Virus record (IMG/VR): IMGVR_UViG_3300026484_000274
Coordinates: 1 to 26,057 of that record
Source of the DNA: a virus
DNA: 26,057 nucleotides
Direction: 5' to 3' (one strand)
Part shown: positions 157-25,152 of the stretch, in pieces
Layout: each line of letters starts with the position of its first letter
Numbering within the stretch: position 1 is the first letter of the stretch
Made by a program: the position numbers and the translations under genes
Notes under the pieces: model-generated
Told to the model about the DNA's origin: nothing
Database searches by the model: none
What the model saw: the letters and a program-made list of their open reading frames with translations, nothing else

Positions 157-680
157 ATAAATAAAATCCGAAAGGATTTATTAAATACCCTAATTATATA
201 AAGGATATTTAATTTATCTCTGATACTTTACATATCTAATTATATTTTAAGACCTACATCTCTTCTTTCAGTCTTTTTGCCTTATCTCCATAAGGACTTT
301 TTCGAAAATACAGACGATTAAATTCTGCTTGAGTTATTTTCTACAATCTTTTGGTTTAGTTTTAATTCCTATCGACTGTTAAAGTAAGAATAAACATTAA
401 ATGAACAGACTCGTTTTTTGGTGAGTCTCTTGGTTTACCCTTTCTCTTCATTATGTTTGATTGGTGACACCTCAAGTTTTGTCTGAGGTTTCTTACTACA
501 AAATCTAATCTGTAACCATATAAGTATTGTTTTACGAATACTTTAAAAAGAAATTAATATAGTTTTCGACGCTACCCAAGTTACCACTAACTTGTTCCAA
601 ATAAATTAGTTACTTTTACTGAATATTATACAGTCGTGGTTTTCACTAATTTTATCAATTTCTTTTTAAAGTATTCTATA
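157..680 (-). ncRNA. Gene-free, stem-loop-rich region inside the tRNA array (candidate structured RNA)
   Basis: No tRNA or credible ORF fits here, yet six short perfect stems occur in about 430 bases: AAATCC/GGATTT (164-179, GAAA loop when read on plus), CCTTAT/ATAAGG (280-295), AGACTC/GAGTCT (407-428), ACCTCA/TGAGGT (469-489), AAGTATT/AATACTT (522-543) and CAAGTT/AACTTG (577-594). It lies between two tRNAs of the same orientation, so it is probably co-transcribed with them. It could be a structured non-coding RNA, decayed tRNA genes or processing stems. I found no tmRNA, RNase P or group I intron signature. Confidence 0.35.
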
Positions 681-1852: not shown

Positions 1853-1867
1853 ATATTTCTTCTTTAT

Positions 1868-1900
1868 ATTATAACTAATTAAAGCTTAAAGTCTTATTAA
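1868..1900 (-). promoter_or_regulatory. Periodic promoter for tRNA-Gln, Met and Thr
   Basis: TTAATA, 5 bases, TTAAGC, 10 bases ending TTAGT, TATAAT at 1868-1873. No further copy lies between the Gln, Met and Thr tRNAs, so this one probably serves all three. Confidence 0.7.
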
Positions 1901-1931
1901 ATTTCTCATAATATTTAAAGAATTTTTAAAA

Positions 1932-2007
1932 TGGTGGTCACAACTGGAGTTGAACCAGTGACACCCAGATTTTCAGTCTGATGCTCTACCAACTGAGCTA
2001 TGTGACC
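1932..2007 (-). tRNA. tRNA-Phe (GAA)
   Basis: Acceptor GGTCACA/TGTGACC is perfect. Loop CTGAAAA gives anticodon GAA. T stem ACTGG/CCAGT, D loop with GGTAG, discriminator A and encoded CCA. Confidence 0.96.
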
Positions 2008-2024
2008 ATTTTTTTAACTTTTAT

Positions 2025-2057
2025 ATTATAACTAATTAAAGCTTAAAGTCTTATTAA
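2025..2057 (-). promoter_or_regulatory. Periodic promoter for tRNA-Phe
   Basis: TTAATA, 5 bases, TTAAGC, 10 bases, TATAAT at 2025-2030. Predicted start is about ten bases before the mature tRNA-Phe 5' end. Confidence 0.7.
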
Positions 2058-2063
2058 ATTTAT

Positions 2064-2139
2064 TGGTGGAGTATATTGGTCTCGAACCAATCACCTCTTG
2101 GCTGCAAACCAAGTGCTCTCCCCGATGAGCTAATACCCC
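2064..2139 (-). tRNA. tRNA-Ala (UGC)
   Basis: Acceptor GGGGTAT/ATACTCC has one G-U pair. Anticodon stem CTTGG/CCAAG encloses TTTGCAG, anticodon TGC. T stem ATTGG/CCAAT and encoded CCA. It is the first tRNA of the array in transcription order. Confidence 0.95.
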
Positions 2140-2160
2140 ATTTATATTTTAAACTTTTTT

Positions 2161-2193
2161 ATTATAACTAAAATATACTTAAATCTTGCTTAA
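2161..2193 (-). promoter_or_regulatory. Periodic promoter at the head of the tRNA array
   Basis: TTAAGC, 5 bases, TTAAGT, 10 bases ending TTAGT, TATAAT at 2161-2166. Its upstream half-site overlaps the stop codon of the small membrane protein gene at 2190-2411. Confidence 0.7.
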
Positions 2194-2411
2194 TAAAATC
2201 TAATTAAACCTATTAAATTAATAATAGAAAAAATTATATTCATAACTAATAACTGATTATTTCTATTTCTATATGCATAAATTGCCCATAAAATAGAACT
2301 TGTTACAAAAAGTAAATATGCAATAAAAAACATATTTAGATTTAAAGCCATCAAAAGAGCGGCAGCAACACCAGTAACAGTAGCAATATTTGTAATTAAA
2401 CTATCATTCAT
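2190..2411 (-). CDS. Small two-helix membrane protein
   Basis: A 73-residue protein that is almost entirely hydrophobic. Residues about 10-45 form one or two membrane segments and residues 52-71 form another, separated by a basic loop (YAYRNRNN). The pattern of W/Y, then N, then IN.IG near the C terminus resembles small SemiSWEET or PnuC-like half transporters, but this is a weak visual impression and I do not assign transport. It has its own promoter (2434-2465) and AAAGGAT as ribosome-binding site. The NAD salvage genes elsewhere in the window make a vitamin-uptake role tempting but unsupported. Confidence 0.65.
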   Translation of the reverse strand: MNDSLITNIATVTGVAAALLMALNLNMFFIAYLLFVTSSILWAIYAYRNRNNQLLVMNIIFSIINLIGLIRFY

Positions 2412-2433
2412 ATTATATCCTTTAGTTGAATAT

Positions 2434-2465
2434 ATTATACCTGAATAGTCTTAAAATAAAATTAA
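2434..2465 (-). promoter_or_regulatory. Periodic promoter for the 73-residue membrane protein
   Basis: TTAATT, 5 bases, TTAAGA, 9 bases ending CAGG, TATAAT at 2434-2439. The spacer is one base shorter than in the other copies. The upstream half-site overlaps the base of the hairpin at 2462-2527. Confidence 0.5.
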
Positions 2466-2548
2466 GTGGATTGTTTTTGTTGTAGAAATTATATAATTTC
2501 TTGAAGTTGTAAACTTTAGCCACTTAATAGTGACCAAAGATCACTATT
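2462..2548 (-). terminator. Three-part stem-loop structure, probable terminator or structured RNA
   Basis: TTAAGTGG (2462-2469) pairs with CCACTTAA (2520-2527) and encloses an 18-base perfect palindrome at 2484-2501. Beside it AATAGTGA (2526-2533) pairs with TCACTATT (2541-2548). On the minus strand the outer stem is followed by a T-rich run, so it can end the transcript of the 41-residue ORF just before the next promoter. The two outer stems share bases 2526-2527, so the two folds may compete. Confidence 0.5.
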
Positions 2549-2673
2549 TATTTTTGAGAGAAGAAAGGATATGAAATTTCTTGAGCCAGAGCACTATCTA
2601 TAAATCTAGACGTATTTTCTGTTGGTTTATTTTCAATATTACTTAAAATAATTGTTTGTAAACTCAATTTCAT
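2548..2673 (-). CDS. Small ORF, 41 residues, unknown
   Basis: ATG at 2671-2673 follows a strong ribosome-binding site (GGAAAGGAAAACT before the ATG), and the frame stays open for 41 codons to TAA at 2548-2550. The product starts MKLSLQTIILSN and ends SYPFFSQK. There is no recognisable family. The N-terminal dozen residues are hydrophobic and the rest polar. It is flanked by a palindrome upstream and the stem-loop structure downstream, so it forms its own small unit. The good ribosome-binding site is the main reason to believe it. Confidence 0.5.
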   Translation of the reverse strand: MKLSLQTIILSNIENKPTENTSRFIDSALAQEISYPFFSQK

Positions 2674-2746
2674 AGTTTTCCTTTCCTTTAGTTTTTATAT
2701 TTAGATATAGTTATTTATAGTCAATATTTCTAAAAATTGACTTTTT

Positions 2747-2772
2747 AGAAAGAAATTTTAAAATTTCTTTCT
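2747..2772. other. 26-base perfect palindrome after the 142-residue gene
   Basis: Bases 2747-2759 and 2760-2772 are perfect reverse complements (arms AGAAAGAAATTTT). It starts four bases past the stop codon of the gene at 2776-3204. The T run follows on the plus strand only, so it is not a textbook terminator for the minus transcripts. It may act in RNA stability or as a protein-binding site. Confidence 0.45.
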
Positions 2773-2775
2773 TTT

Positions 2776-3204
2776 TTAGTTCAAAACTCTCAAATAATTA
2801 AAATATTGAGGTTTTGACCATTGTGCATCCTCAAGATCTGGATCATCATCGATATTTTCTAAATATCTCATATAACCTTTTTCTGTATTTAAAATACAAA
2901 GTAGTGTCATTCCACCAGCTATTGTAGTTGTTGAAGCATATCTACAAAGGATTTCATTTTTATTTGGATTACCATCTAAAAATTCTTTCCCTTTTGCTTC
3001 TTCATTCTTGAATAGATTTGTAAAAATATATGTTGAGTCTTTTTTAGTTTTAAAGAATTTTTCTAAAAGACCAATTCCTATAATAGACAGTCCAATTTTA
3101 TTAATATAATTATCCATTCCCTCAAGATCCCATTTATCCTTAGAACTATCTCTAAAGATTTTTGGTTTGCTTTCTCTTACTGAGATAAGTGCTTCTTTAA
3201 TCAT
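2776..3204 (-). CDS. Hypothetical protein, 142 residues
   Basis: I recognise no family. The protein has a basic N terminus, a short hydrophobic stretch at residues 36-47 (IGLSIIGIGLLE) too short and broken to be a sure membrane helix, and an acidic patch near the C terminus (ENIDDDPDLEDA). It lies eight bases downstream of the 101-residue gene at 3213-3518, and both should be read from the promoter at 3541-3573. Confidence 0.7.
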   Translation of the reverse strand: MIKEALISVRESKPKIFRDSSKDKWDLEGMDNYINKIGLSIIGIGLLEKFFKTKKDSTYIFTNLFKNEEAKGKEFLDGNPNKNEILCRYASTTTIAGGMTLLCILNTEKGYMRYLENIDDDPDLEDAQWSKPQYFNYLRVLN

Positions 3205-3212
3205 ATTTCTTC

Positions 3213-3518
3213 CTAATTCTCTAAAAGAGAAGCTATTGATTGATAAAGATCCCCATCATTTTCAATAATATTAATAAATGAATCTACTAATGTCATTTCA
3301 GTTGGGTTGCCATCTTCTTTAATTTTAGCTTTTACTTTACTTATAGCTTTATTTATTTCTTTAGTTAAAATACCATCTTCTTTTGCTTCTTGTTTGATAA
3401 CTTTTATATCTTCTTTAAGACCCTTTATTTCATTTTCAATATAAAGTATTCTTTTAATATACTCTTTTGATTTTTCAACATCGTTGTCTACATTTAGAAA
3501 ATTTAAATCTTCTGTCAT
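3213..3518 (-). CDS. Small coiled-coil protein resembling T4 DsbA / GapR-type DNA-binding proteins
   Basis: 101 residues. Residues 15-70 are a charged heptad-like helix with a pattern (I..I...IK.LKEDIK.IK.EAKEDG then an EI.K.I...K...K helix) like T4 DsbA and the GapR/DUF2312 family, whose members bind double-stranded AT-rich DNA. In T4, DsbA binds near late promoters. An acidic, amphipathic C-terminal third follows. A neighbouring HU-like gene would fit a DNA-architecture role. The match is by pattern only; a generic coiled-coil protein is the alternative. Confidence 0.55.
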   Translation of the reverse strand: MTEDLNFLNVDNDVEKSKEYIKRILYIENEIKGLKEDIKVIKQEAKEDGILTKEINKAISKVKAKIKEDGNPTEMTLVDSFINIIENDGDLYQSIASLLEN

Positions 3519-5390: not shown

Positions 5391-6425
5391 CTATCTTGTA
5401 AATATAGCTATATTTGCAACTTGTTCTTTAAGAGAATGTTTTAAGAAATATTTCATTATACCACCATAATTACAAGTAATAGAACAATTATCATATTCAT
5501 CATAGATTGCTTGCTTTATATCAGCTGGCATACCACTTGGATGAATTAGATTTTTATTTCTTTCAAAATTCTTTCTTAAAAGCTTTTGGTGTGGTGTTTC
5601 TCCCTCTAGATTTTTTACTAGATCTTTTGCAAATTTTTCAGCAGTTTTTTCTCCGAACCTTACTTTTTTAAAGATTTTCTTTTCGACATTTTCACCTTTT
5701 TTATTCAAGTACCAAATATCAAATTCTTCTTCTAAAGTAACAATTTGTTCATATGGTAAACAATCATATTCATATTCATTTAAAGAAATTTCTTTTTCTT
5801 TAAGGTATGCTTTATATTCGTCTGTAAATGTAGTATTAAAAAGAATATTTGGAATATTATCAGCAGCATCTCCAAGACAAATATGAGTTTTTACCCAAAG
5901 ACTTAATTCAGATGGTGTCATATCGACATATTTCTTTTTAATTGGCATATACATCTTAGCACCATAATTAAGAACAATTTTCATATCCTTATCTTCTGTA
6001 ATTACTAAAACATCATCATATTTACTATATTTTTCAGCTAAAGCAAAAATAACATCATCTGCTTCTGCTCTATCAACTTCAACTACTTTAAAAGAGAAAT
6101 GTTCTTTAAGATTTTCTATAAGTTCCTTATTATATTTAAAAAACTCTTCAAAATTTATTTCACTTTCATCCCTACTTTTTTTCCTATGTGATTTGTAATC
6201 AGGATAAACATCCTTTCTCCAATTCATTCTTGAGTCGATTGCTAAAACCATTTCTTTTCTTCCAAATTGCTTCTTCAAAAAGTTTAATGATATAAACATT
6301 TGGTGTAAATACATTCCAATAAAATCTTCAGTAATATATTTTCCGTCTTTTTTCTTTGGTCTTGCATTAAAAACTGATGTAAATAAGTTTCTATTTGCGA
6401 GATGTGAGAAGTCTACTAATAACAT
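5391..6425 (-). CDS. rnh: T4 RNase H-type 5'-3' nuclease (FEN family)
   Basis: 344 residues, T4 RNase H being 305. Metal-binding acids of the FEN fold are in order: Asp5 in LLVDFSH, Asp64 in LAIDSR, Glu121/Asp123/Asp124 in RAEADD, Asp145/Asp147 in TEDKD and Asp186/Asp189 in GDAADN. The conserved KSHRKKSRDE arch region is at 78-87. The C terminus GGIMKYFLKHSL matches the T4 RNase H end. It removes RNA primers and adjacent DNA from lagging-strand fragments, stimulated by gp32 and the clamp, both encoded just upstream. An insertion around residues 195-260 accounts for the extra length. Confidence 0.92.
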   Translation of the reverse strand: MLLVDFSHLANRNLFTSVFNARPKKKDGKYITEDFIGMYLHQMFISLNFLKKQFGRKEMVLAIDSRMNWRKDVYPDYKSHRKKSRDESEINFEEFFKYNKELIENLKEHFSFKVVEVDRAEADDVIFALAEKYSKYDDVLVITEDKDMKIVLNYGAKMYMPIKKKYVDMTPSELSLWVKTHICLGDAADNIPNILFNTTFTDEYKAYLKEKEISLNEYEYDCLPYEQIVTLEEEFDIWYLNKKGENVEKKIFKKVRFGEKTAEKFAKDLVKNLEGETPHQKLLRKNFERNKNLIHPSGMPADIKQAIYDEYDNCSITCNYGGIMKYFLKHSLKEQVANIAIFTR

Positions 6426-22484: not shown

Positions 22485-23303
22485 CTAGTACTGAATTCCT
22501 TTAGATAATACTTCATAAAACATATCCCTTGAAATATCTTCTTTATTTCCTTGTATTTTTGAAATTGCTATTACTGAAGTGTCAATATCTTTTAAGAAAG
22601 AAAAACTTCCTATTTTTTCTATTTCACCCTTTATTAGCTTATTATTAAGAATATTTCTTAATTCATCCATCCTATCAATATAGATTTTCATAATAAACTC
22701 AATTTCATCTTTTGAAAATTTACCAGTTTTAATATCAAATAAAAGATCTCTATTATTATAATATTTCACACACGACTCATCATTATTTTTCATATTAAAA
22801 TTTTTAGGTTCAAATAAAAGTTGTTCAGCAAATATTATACCTCTTACAGCGTGAGAGAGGGACTTTAAAGCATCTTTATTGTTTGTTCTATGTAAACCCT
22901 TAAATGCACTTTTAAAGTCCCTCTTAGCTAATCCTAAGTATGATTTAATTATATTATAGTTTATGAATTGAAATCTTTTTTCATAAAGAAAATCTAAACT
23001 ACTATTTTTCATTTCTTCAGTAAAAAGTAATTCAAAGTTAATTGTCGCATCTCCAGTTAATATATTTCTTATAAAGCCTTGAAGTGTTGAAAAGTTTCTA
23101 TCAACTTTTTCTTCTTTATATTGTAATTGGTGATGTTCCCATAAAAATGATTTTGAAGTCATATCATCTTCAATATAAATTGTTAATAGATCTATATCAG
23201 ACTCTTCTGTTTGTAAATTATAAAGAGGACTTCCAACTTCAAAAGTTACAAATGAAATTTTATCAAGTTGGTTAAAAAGTTCTTTTTCAATATGAATATT
23301 CAT
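22485..23303 (-). CDS. Predicted nucleotidyltransferase (DNA polymerase beta-like fold)
   Basis: 272 residues. FEVGSPLYNLQTEESDIDLL at about 22-41 is the GS...DxD signature of the polymerase-beta superfamily, close to the COG3541 group found in many T4-like phages. NFELLFTEE near 90 may supply the third acid. The rest is helical, with FKGLHRTNNKDALKSLSHAVRG and a second helical part. These proteins transfer nucleotides to proteins, small molecules or RNA ends; the phage substrate is unknown. It is coupled by TAATG to the 185-residue gene before it. Confidence 0.78.
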   Translation of the reverse strand: MNIHIEKELFNQLDKISFVTFEVGSPLYNLQTEESDIDLLTIYIEDDMTSKSFLWEHHQLQYKEEKVDRNFSTLQGFIRNILTGDATINFELLFTEEMKNSSLDFLYEKRFQFINYNIIKSYLGLAKRDFKSAFKGLHRTNNKDALKSLSHAVRGIIFAEQLLFEPKNFNMKNNDESCVKYYNNRDLLFDIKTGKFSKDEIEFIMKIYIDRMDELRNILNNKLIKGEIEKIGSFSFLKDIDTSVIAISKIQGNKEDISRDMFYEVLSKGIQY

Positions 23304-23860
23304 TAAAGTTCAATCTCCTTTGCTTTTTCACTTAGTTCTTTATAGTTATCTAAAAGAAAAACATTATCAAATTTTTTCATTTCATTAAATCTATCATAGT
23401 GACCTATTATAATTTTATAACCATTTAAAAGTTTTAAGGCATAAAGTGTTGGATTTATACCTCTATTTTTTAATTCTTTAGTTATATTATTGATAATCTT
23501 TTTATATCCTTTACTATTCAATTTATCAATTTCAGAGTCCATTTCAGGCATTTTATTCAATAGTTCACATACAAGTTTTTCAACATTTTCATCCATTACT
23601 AAAATATCATAAGCTTCAGCATATTCTTTTCTTGGAGTTCCATAATTACCATAACCATTTTCATCATACCAAACTGAATTTTTTACGAATGCTGATTTTG
23701 AAATAGTACATTTTTCAACAATATTAAGTTCCTTAATAATTCCAGTTAGAGTTGATGCTAGAGATGCTGATAATGAATACCCATAACCATATGGTGCTTT
23801 TATTTTTGCAACTGTTAAATAAAGATCTGATAAACTCAATGTTTTTTGTAATGTTTTCAT
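23303..23860 (-). CDS. Hypothetical protein coupled to the nucleotidyltransferase, 185 residues
   Basis: No family recognised. The N-terminal part has LSLSDLYLTVAKIKAPYGYGYSLS and a Gly/Tyr-rich NGYGNYG segment at about 68-75, followed by two helical parts and a strand-helix end (NGYKIIIGHYDRFNE, FLLDNYKELSEKAKE). It is directly upstream of the nucleotidyltransferase with a one-base overlap, so the two proteins may work together. Promoter 23886-23918 stands just before it. Confidence 0.68.
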   Translation of the reverse strand: MKTLQKTLSLSDLYLTVAKIKAPYGYGYSLSASLASTLTGIIKELNIVEKCTISKSAFVKNSVWYDENGYGNYGTPRKEYAEAYDILVMDENVEKLVCELLNKMPEMDSEIDKLNSKGYKKIINNITKELKNRGINPTLYALKLLNGYKIIIGHYDRFNEMKKFDNVFLLDNYKELSEKAKEIEL

Positions 23861-23885
23861 AATAACTCCTAATTTGTTATATAAT

Positions 23886-23918
23886 ATTATAACTAAATTA
23901 TACTTAGAGTTTACTTAA
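23886..23918 (-). promoter_or_regulatory. Periodic promoter for the nucleotidyltransferase operon
   Basis: TTAAGT, 5 bases, CTAAGT, 10 bases ending TTAGT, TATAAT at 23886-23891. It lies at the left edge of the non-coding repeat locus. Confidence 0.7.
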
Positions 23919-23937
23919 AGTGTATAGTAAAAATAAA

Positions 23938-24333
23938 ATGTCTTGGAGATGTAAAAAATTTTTATTAATCTATTATATAGTAAAATTAAAAACTAAAAAC
24001 CCTAAAATAAAACTATAACTAAAAAGTAAAATGTCTTGCAGATGTAAAAAATTTTTATTAATCTATTATATAGTAAAATTAAAAACTAAAAAATAAAATG
24101 TCTTACAGATGTAAAAAATTTTTATTAATCTATTATATAGTAAAATTAAAAACTAAAAAATAAAATGTCTTGCAGATGCTATTTTTTAGTTACGAAAATG
24201 TTGAATTTGTATGATTGAAAAAGCTTGTTGAAGAATTTACAAGCTATTTGTGTAAGATAAATAGCATCTGCAAGACATAAAAAAGTTTTATTTTCATCTT
24301 GCAGATGCTAAAAAATAAAATGTCTTGGAGACA
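23938..24333. repeat. Tandem 67-bp repeats with seven TCTTGCAGATG-type dyads
   Basis: No gene fits. The core TCTTGCAGATG (variants TCTTGGAGATG, TCTTACAGATG, TCTTGGAGACA) occurs at 23941, 24034, 24101, 24168, inverted in 24259-24278, at 24297 and at 24323. Copies two to four are exactly 67 bp apart and share an AT-rich body (a TAAAAAATTTTTATT segment, a CTATTATATAG near-palindrome, then AAAATTAAAAACTA). The first copy stands 93 bp from the second, with an extra insertion. The core is a dyad (TCT-tgc-AGA; TGTCT-tgg-AGACA). The same body repeats without unique spacers, so this is not a CRISPR array. It could be an iteron-like origin, an operator cluster or a source of small RNAs. Confidence 0.85.
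24165..24278 (-). ncRNA. Perfect 20-bp inverted repeat forming a large stem-loop, followed by a T run
   Basis: Bases 24165-24184 and 24259-24278 are exact reverse complements over 20 bp. The 74-base loop holds a second stem, AGCTTGT with ACAAGCT. On the minus strand the 3' arm ends in AGACAT and is followed by TTTTATTTTTT, as in an intrinsic terminator. The structure therefore looks like a small stable RNA with its own terminator, or a cruciform at an origin. The outer stem is made of one direct and one inverted copy of the repeat core. Confidence 0.55.
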
Positions 24334-24335
24334 TT
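24308..24335 (-). terminator. Intrinsic terminator after the metallophosphoesterase gene
   Basis: On the minus strand AATGTCT-CCA-AGACATT forms a seven-pair stem with a three-base loop, directly followed by TTATTTTTTAG. It overlaps the last bases of the metallophosphoesterase stop codon and is itself one of the repeat cores. Confidence 0.65.
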
Positions 24336-25152
24336 ATTTAATTATTTTAAGAGTTTTTATAGTAGTGTTTAAATCGCCAGGATATCCTAAAGGATTACAA
24401 GCAAAGAATATATCTTCATCTTCATAGGAATAGATATTATGAGTATGTCCAAAAATATAATTTTTAGTTTTATTTTTAATTAAATCATACCCACCTTTAG
24501 TACGAAAATAAAACATATTATCAGGATCTCCAATATATTTTGGATTCATATGTTTATCTTTCATTTCATACATCGCTATATGAGAAAAAAGAATATCCAC
24601 CTTTGGCATTTTTTCAAGAAGTTCTTTTTGCTTCTCCCAAAAACTTACAGGACAAAACCCCTTATATTTTTCGTTTGAATACGGGAGGCAAATAGGGTAT
24701 GTCGTATAAATATGAACAGAGTCATTCATAGTTTGCTTCCAGTAACCCAAATCAGCTACTTCCATTTCATACCATCCTGGAAGACCCCCAATAGTTATAC
24801 CCTCTACTTCAACTACATTCCCATCCATAAAAAATATACCAAGTTCTAAACATATGTTTTTTAAATCTTCTATTCTTTCAAACGAGTTCCATTCAAATTT
24901 CTTTTGAGTATTTTTAGATAATAGATAGAGATCGTGGTTTCCATATGTTAAAAATATATGTTTATAATACCCTTTAAGTATTTTTAAAAATATTTTATTT
25001 TGTCCATTATTATGTCCAATATCTCCAGCTATTATTAAAATTTTACTTTTTTCTTTAGGTAAAATCGACTCAATGAATTTACGAATTTTTCCCTCTGCTG
25101 CGACATTTAAGTAAAAATCTAGATGTATATCGCTTATAAAATCAATTTCCAT
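24334..25152 (-). CDS. Calcineurin-like metallophosphoesterase
   Basis: 272 residues. All five metal motifs are visible: DFISDIHLD near 4-12 (D-x-H), IAGDIGHNN near 41-49, YGNHDLY near 70-76, ILFSHIAMYEM near 190, and FGHTHNIYSY near 238. It is a cytosolic hydrolase of phosphomonoesters or diesters such as cyclic nucleotides, nucleotides or DNA ends; the substrate cannot be read from sequence. AAAAGGAAAATA stands before the ATG. It follows the acidic protein gene by 22 bases with a hairpin between. Confidence 0.88.
   Translation of the reverse strand: MEIDFISDIHLDFYLNVAAEGKIRKFIESILPKEKSKILIIAGDIGHNNGQNKIFLKILKGYYKHIFLTYGNHDLYLLSKNTQKKFEWNSFERIEDLKNICLELGIFFMDGNVVEVEGITIGGLPGWYEMEVADLGYWKQTMNDSVHIYTTYPICLPYSNEKYKGFCPVSFWEKQKELLEKMPKVDILFSHIAMYEMKDKHMNPKYIGDPDNMFYFRTKGGYDLIKNKTKNYIFGHTHNIYSYEDEDIFFACNPLGYPGDLNTTIKTLKIIK

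Follow-up and report, generated by a model that had tools for sequence, protein, structure and literature searches.

Results

Organization of the repeat locus

The DNA analyzed here (the window, 26,057 nucleotides) is the 26-kb virus record of a T4-like phage that encodes a gp32-like protein, an RNase H-like exonuclease, a primase and RNA ligase 1, with all genes on the minus strand. The largest gene-free gap of the window outside the tRNA region spans positions 23861-24333 (473 bp) and was described in a first-pass annotation as the site of an unusual repeat locus with dyad cores, a description that our analysis bears out. The features of the locus and its surroundings (23,303-25,152), hereinafter array A and its neighbors, are as follows.

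23303-23860, minus strand: first gene of the downstream operon, an open reading frame without a family match in profile searches
23877-23919, minus strand: early-type phage promoter TTTAAGTAAACTCTAAGTATAATTTAGTTATAATATTATATAA of the next operon, adjoining array A, recognized by motif
23929-24021, plus strand: repeat unit 1, 93 bp, consisting of the 67-bp unit and the CCCTAAAATAAAACTATAACTAAAAA module, core ATGTCTTGGAGATG at 23938 (direct repeat)
24022-24088, plus strand: repeat unit 2, 67 bp, core ATGTCTTGCAGATG at 24031 (direct repeat)
24089-24155, plus strand: repeat unit 3, 67 bp, core ATGTCTTACAGATG at 24098 (direct repeat)
24156-24178, plus strand: truncated repeat unit, core alone, continuing into the stem-loop (direct repeat)
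24165-24184: arm 1 of a perfect 20-bp inverted repeat, beginning with the core ATGTCTTGCAGATG (repeat search)
24185-24258: 74-nt loop of the stem-loop, between the arms
24259-24278: arm 2 of the perfect 20-bp inverted repeat (repeat search)
24295-24307: perfect dyad core CATCT-TGC-AGATG (sequence, fold)
24320-24334: perfect dyad core ATGTCT-TGG-AGACAT, type S1 (sequence; RNA hairpin, z -3.7)
24334-25152, minus strand: metallophosphoesterase gene, an open reading frame matching phrog_1649 (E 6e-32) and Pfam Metallophos (E 1e-13)

In the direction of transcription, the metallophosphoesterase gene is upstream of array A, and its stop codon, which touches the outermost dyad, is followed by the perfect dyad ATGTCTCCAAGACAT, the stem-loop, the three units, the early promoter and the next gene; the motif of this promoter recurs in front of many genes, both of the window and of the related contigs. 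The 71-nt direct repeats at 23929, 24022 and 24089 are 97% alike and are spaced by 93 and 67 bp, and the array as a whole is approximately 81% AT. The seven dyad cores that the first-pass annotation had counted, three of them exactly 67 bp apart, were all recovered: four on the plus strand (23938, 24031, 24098 and 24165, the last three with the 67-bp spacing), one on the minus strand (24278-24265), and those at 24295-24307 and 24320-24334. With up to 3 mismatches allowed, the window contains 12 core matches against 2.0 expected, a count reached in none of 100 shuffles.

The phage and related contigs

Early promoters of the phage follow the pattern TTTAAG(T/C)..TTTAGTTATAATATATTATATAA (TTTAAG..TATAAT), and the structural genes are preceded by T4-type late boxes TATAAATA. 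The major capsid protein matches those of Rhizobium phages at 40%, with no Campylobacter phage among the matches listed; a host in Campylobacterota would fit the low GC content and the TTTAAGT/TATAAT promoters.

Searches with two flanking proteins detected no relatives in viral contigs, and scans with GroEL and the polymerase returned only distant relatives apart from G1 itself; it was the repeat pattern that led to the contigs G1 (42.7 kb) and G2 (34.4 kb), both from a single sample. Positions 1-277 and 518-765 of the window overlap the start of G2 at 97-99% identity, and a contig from another sample, G003 (48 kb, 93-94% identical), runs through the window/G2 junction, so that by sequence the window and G2 are neighbors in one phage species. 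The approximately 240 bp at window positions 278-517 are absent at the same place in G2. Contig G1 probably belongs to the same genome, judging from its sample, composition, and shared repeats and promoters rather than from an overlap.

A tmRNA with the tag ANNTNYSVVVAA is present on a relative contig (L040, 55-411), and the phage also encodes GroEL and, by sequence, its own SmpB (L041, 120-1706 and 2829-3281). At L041 13835-13970 (G1 33835-33970), in a 307-bp gap, the early promoter core ATTTAGTTATAATAT occurs in both orientations, its copies forming 15-bp inverted repeats.

Dispersal and modular build of the arrays

The search for the core elsewhere in the genome and in relatives, which had been proposed as a check, revealed units in at least four more arrays, for a total of at least five in the approximately 103 kb of the window, G1 and G2, and cores that persist as a class in the 94%-identical strain.

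Array A, window: runs against the genes
Array B, G2 at 5.8 kb: runs with the genes
Array C, G2 at 34.2 kb, contig end: runs with the genes
Array D, G1 at 23.4 kb: runs against the genes
Array E, G1 at 40.25 kb: runs with the genes

In these approximately 103 kb, all tRNA-free gaps that reach 400 bp contain an array, and G2 ends inside array C, as unresolved repeats would predict. Where the placement is readable, the arrays mostly separate the terminator-like hairpin that comes after one operon from the promoter that opens the following one. Each unit combines a short dyad core, set between A/T tracts, with an AT-rich spacer ATTTTTATTAATCTnnnATAGTAAAA and, in some cases, filler; as modules, these are the core, the spacer ATTTTTATTAATCT(n)ATAGTAAAA and the optional CCCTAAAATAAAACTATAACTAAAAA. 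Unit sizes are 67 and 93 bp, with a 14-15-bp core, and 25-26 bp on G2, and the spacings across the arrays are 25, 26, 67 and 92-93 bp. In array B, head-to-tail copies of 25 bp (core alone) and 26 bp (variant core) are 100% identical, which indicates recent tandem amplification. No convincing match to the array was found in 50,697 phage records. The core with its flanks had only two single matches in the bacterial genomes searched, both in Butyricimonas, and was discarded as a candidate bacterial repeat on this account.

Core copies inside genes

The coding sequences of the window, G1 and G2 contain 11 occurrences of the core pattern, palindromic copies being counted on both strands, compared to 1.7 expected under synonymous-codon shuffling (0 of 60 shuffles reach 11). 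Judging by the flanks, at least three of these look like true repeat copies, namely those at G1 34752 (a perfect ATGTCTCCAAGACAT), G2 3221 (an approximately 35-bp match to array units) and G2 3418, the latter two being present also in G003. Other in-gene cores, such as the one at window position 5879 in the RNase H gene, probably reflect a coincidence of conserved codons. The G2 gene at 1867-3510 (L043), with two core copies in its 3' part, encodes a protein similar to TET-associated glycosyltransferases and HMC glucosyltransferases, and the phage may glucosylate modified DNA.

Folding and RNA features

The 114-base stem-loop with 20 perfect pairs that had been noted in array A (24165-24184/24259-24278) is confirmed, with a folding energy of -36.0 kcal/mol on the minus strand (z -9.8 against shuffles) and -41.4 kcal/mol on the plus strand (z -7.5). 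Its counterpart on G1 (23335-23448) is exactly 114 nt long as well, with a largely different loop; in this comparison of two sequences, the changes between the window and G1 are one-sided, the G1 stem contains an uncompensated G-G mismatch, and no compensatory changes were found. Single repeat units fold no better than shuffles. An Rfam search of the array produced no match above threshold, only sub-threshold chance hits; a terminator scan of the array detected no terminator-like site; and the unit, searched for the phage's own early and late promoter motifs, matches neither class. The T run that had been likened to a terminator after the minus-strand stem is indeed present, but it is a feature of every unit (ACATTTTATTTTTT or nearly so) and not of the stem-loop alone. 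On the minus strand, TTTATTTTTT comes after the hairpin at 24320-24334.

Another perfect 20-bp inverted repeat is located in the tRNA region (536-555/657-676), so that a perfect stem of this length is not unique in the window. On the minus strand, this repeat closes a 141-nt element (536-676) between tRNA-Tyr and tRNA-Met that is found also at L043 90-231 and L060 10264-10407. In strain G003, the stem is at the same place and differs partly in sequence, with the inner blocks CCACGA and TTGGAACAAG conserved. This element has no Rfam match and may be an undescribed structured RNA.

Several further candidates were considered and set aside. When a shared guide-like origin was considered for the two 114-nt loops, their middles aligned slightly better than shuffles, 11 of 500 of which attained the score. 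A mini-ORF in the core (ATG TCT TGC AGA TGT..., MSCRC) has no ribosome-binding site before its ATG, unlike the genes with their AAAGGA-like sites; its codons 3 and 5 vary freely, and the ATG is absent from two G003 units. The AT spacer was ruled out as a promoter against the phage's own promoter motifs, and a similarity of CCTCC variants to the anti-Shine-Dalgarno sequence was spotted with no supporting evidence.

Turnover between strains

The strain comparison covers two strains, one of which has two arrays (positions B and C). In G003, which is 94% identical, arrays are present at both positions with well-kept borders and different content, and a G003 array is bounded on one side by a 15-mer (G003 46842) identical to the core at 24320-24334 of the window. 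Within the first strain, units of different arrays are 93.8% identical on average (90-100%), with up to 100% identity between G1 and G2; the region of unit 1 in array A has a 164-bp match, 96% identical, on G2 (34214-34377). Between the two strains, units at the same position (C) are 82% identical, compared to 92-96% for the flanks at B and C, so the arrays change much faster than the neighboring genes. Arrays within a strain are more alike than arrays at the same position across strains, a pattern of concerted evolution in which arrays recombine with or convert one another.

The alignments at the two positions show an array replaced between conserved borders, with unit number and sequence differing between these close relatives (G2 and G003). 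The spacer middle CTAATATATAG is still shared by position, so the units are mosaics. At position B of G003, the long unit is lost entirely and the dyads TGTCCTCCAGATGCT and ATGTCTCCAAGACA remain. The dyad core is retained across every array of both strains even as the spacers change, with variable half-sites (AGATGT, AGACAT, AGACCC); this persistence through turnover hints that the dyad cores may be selected rather than passive.

Discussion

A probable recombining family of intergenic repeats

The arrays are dispersed, modular, located mostly between operons, replaced between close strains and homogenized within a strain. We put at roughly two in three the probability that this T4-like phage carries a dispersed family of intergenic repeats that recombine with one another, that the locus is one of its arrays, and that the family is comparable to the repeat regions known from Campylobacter group II phages. 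T4-like phages replicate largely via recombination. The engine would be this recombination-dependent replication combined with slippage at the short dyads: the dyads would favor slippage and the gaps between operons would tolerate insertions, so that the arrays could expand, shrink and copy each other. Gain, loss and copying of units between distant arrays account for the likeness within a strain and the divergence between strains, and the stem-loop could have formed from two copies in opposite orientation. A by-product of this process, and possibly a benefit, would be homologous patches at operon borders that could be used for the exchange of genome modules; alternatively, neutral gaps may simply tolerate the repeats.

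Several other explanations were weighed against this one. The dyad core TCT-N3-AGA could be recognized by a phage or host protein at operon borders as an operator, a reading already offered in the first-pass annotation, or as an insulator, partition or recombination-enhancer site; the adjacency of the arrays to promoters and the persistence of the core amid changing spacers speak for this possibility, but the spacing (from 25 to 92-93 bp), the orientation relative to the genes and the half-sites all vary, and many early promoters have no core nearby, so that it seems unlikely. Somewhat more doubtful still is the proposal that the core has a function of its own, a phage protein binding it or cutting it as a cruciform, for instance, to start recombination-dependent replication, in which case the arrays would be programmed starters of recombination that homogenize each other and spread the core into genes. 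The in-gene copies, in particular the perfect palindrome at G1 34752, the long match at G2 3221 and the copies common to G2 and G003, could also be expected of remnants of a small palindromic mobile element (REP-, RPE- or MITE-like) that inserts its copies into genes as well as gaps. Neither a target-site duplication nor a full-length conserved element was recognized, and recombination better fits tandem arrays with spacers, which makes such an element a quite improbable source of the arrays.

The other two readings proposed in the first-pass annotation have little in their favor. Tandem repeats, the approximately 81% AT content and strong inverted repeats are what a replication origin with iterons, an unwinding region and a cruciform would display, but at least five arrays exist in approximately 103 kb, they occur in both orientations, and most of the unit and its spacing are not conserved between 94%-identical strains. 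Five diverging copies are not expected of an origin, and this reading is strongly disfavored. The GC-skew check suggested for it found no sign change near any array, but all genes lie on one strand. T4-like phages can use several origins, so that a single array might still act as one. It is just as improbable that transcription of the stem-loop or of the units yields small RNAs, decoys or terminators: the stem-loop folds far above shuffles on both strands, the G1 counterpart has exactly the same length, and the outermost hairpin precedes TTTATTTTTT on the minus strand, but the failure of single units to fold beyond shuffles, the negative Rfam, terminator and promoter results, the G1 stem with its mismatch and different loop, and the orientation of three of the five arrays to the genes, opposite to that of array A, all argue against this reading.

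Comparison with known systems

Repeat regions are known from the Campylobacter group II phages CP220, CPt10, CP21 and IBB_35 (Firehammervirus) (PMC2853527, PMC4546147). In CP220 and CP21, units of approximately 75 bp are reported to occur in variable numbers in a plaque-purified population, with the arrays standing between modules; it has been proposed that these arrays are maintained by recombination as homologous patches (PMC2853527, PMC4546147). The amplicon-length ladder of CP220 was not seen in a later study of related Campylobacter phages, in which the massive repeat regions of Campylobacter lytic phages are called rather uncommon for phages (PMC4546147).

The present phage shares with this group the T4-like character, a GC content of 27%, AT-rich units of approximately 70-90 bp (72-86 bp for CP-type units) built around a short core, several arrays that are mostly extragenic, run in either orientation and vary in copy number, breakage of assemblies at the arrays and occasional copies elsewhere in the genome. 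As in CP220 and CP21, the extragenic arrays are dispersed, with five on the window, G1 and G2, provided that G1 is part of the same genome. The unit and core sequences are unrelated: the CP21 core is AAACTTAAAGCAA, the window-type core has a single chance-level match in CP21 and none in the CP21 arrays, and array A has no match to CP21 beyond AT-rich background. The arrays described here are approximately 0.15-0.45 kb long compared to 1-2.9 kb in Campylobacter phages, and the capsid protein, with its 40% match to Rhizobium phages, places the phage in a different lineage. Thus, the architecture is known from Campylobacter phages, whereas the sequence family, the lineage and the array size differ; in the literature on other phages with such repeats, we found nothing closer. 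The presence of a second repeat family, unrelated in sequence, in another T4-like lineage suggests a repeated origin of such regions, and the comparison of the two strains provides direct evidence of concerted evolution between arrays tens of kilobases apart. The breakage at the arrays is also a warning with regard to assemblies of such phages.

REP/BIME sequences and Rickettsia palindromic elements are short dispersed palindromes of bacterial chromosomes that are clustered, alternate in orientation and are located partly in genes. The palindrome clustering, orientation and in-gene copies are shared with the arrays described here, which differ from REP/BIME in belonging to a lytic-type phage and in their long AT spacers and tandem 67/93-bp periods. 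Plasmid iteron origins combine tandem repeats, AT-rich DNA and inverted repeats, all of which the arrays share; in contrast to iteron origins, the arrays are many, dispersed and irregularly spaced, with a unit that is not conserved between close strains and no initiator gene identified.

In CP21 (HE815464), for example at 55662-55905 on the minus strand (L049), the 13-bp unit core reads TTGCTTTAAGTTT on the other strand. In some CP21 units, TATAAT stands after the core (TTTAAGTTTCAGATATAATAC), an arrangement that closely resembles the early promoters of the present phage, and the CP21 repeats may contain promoters.
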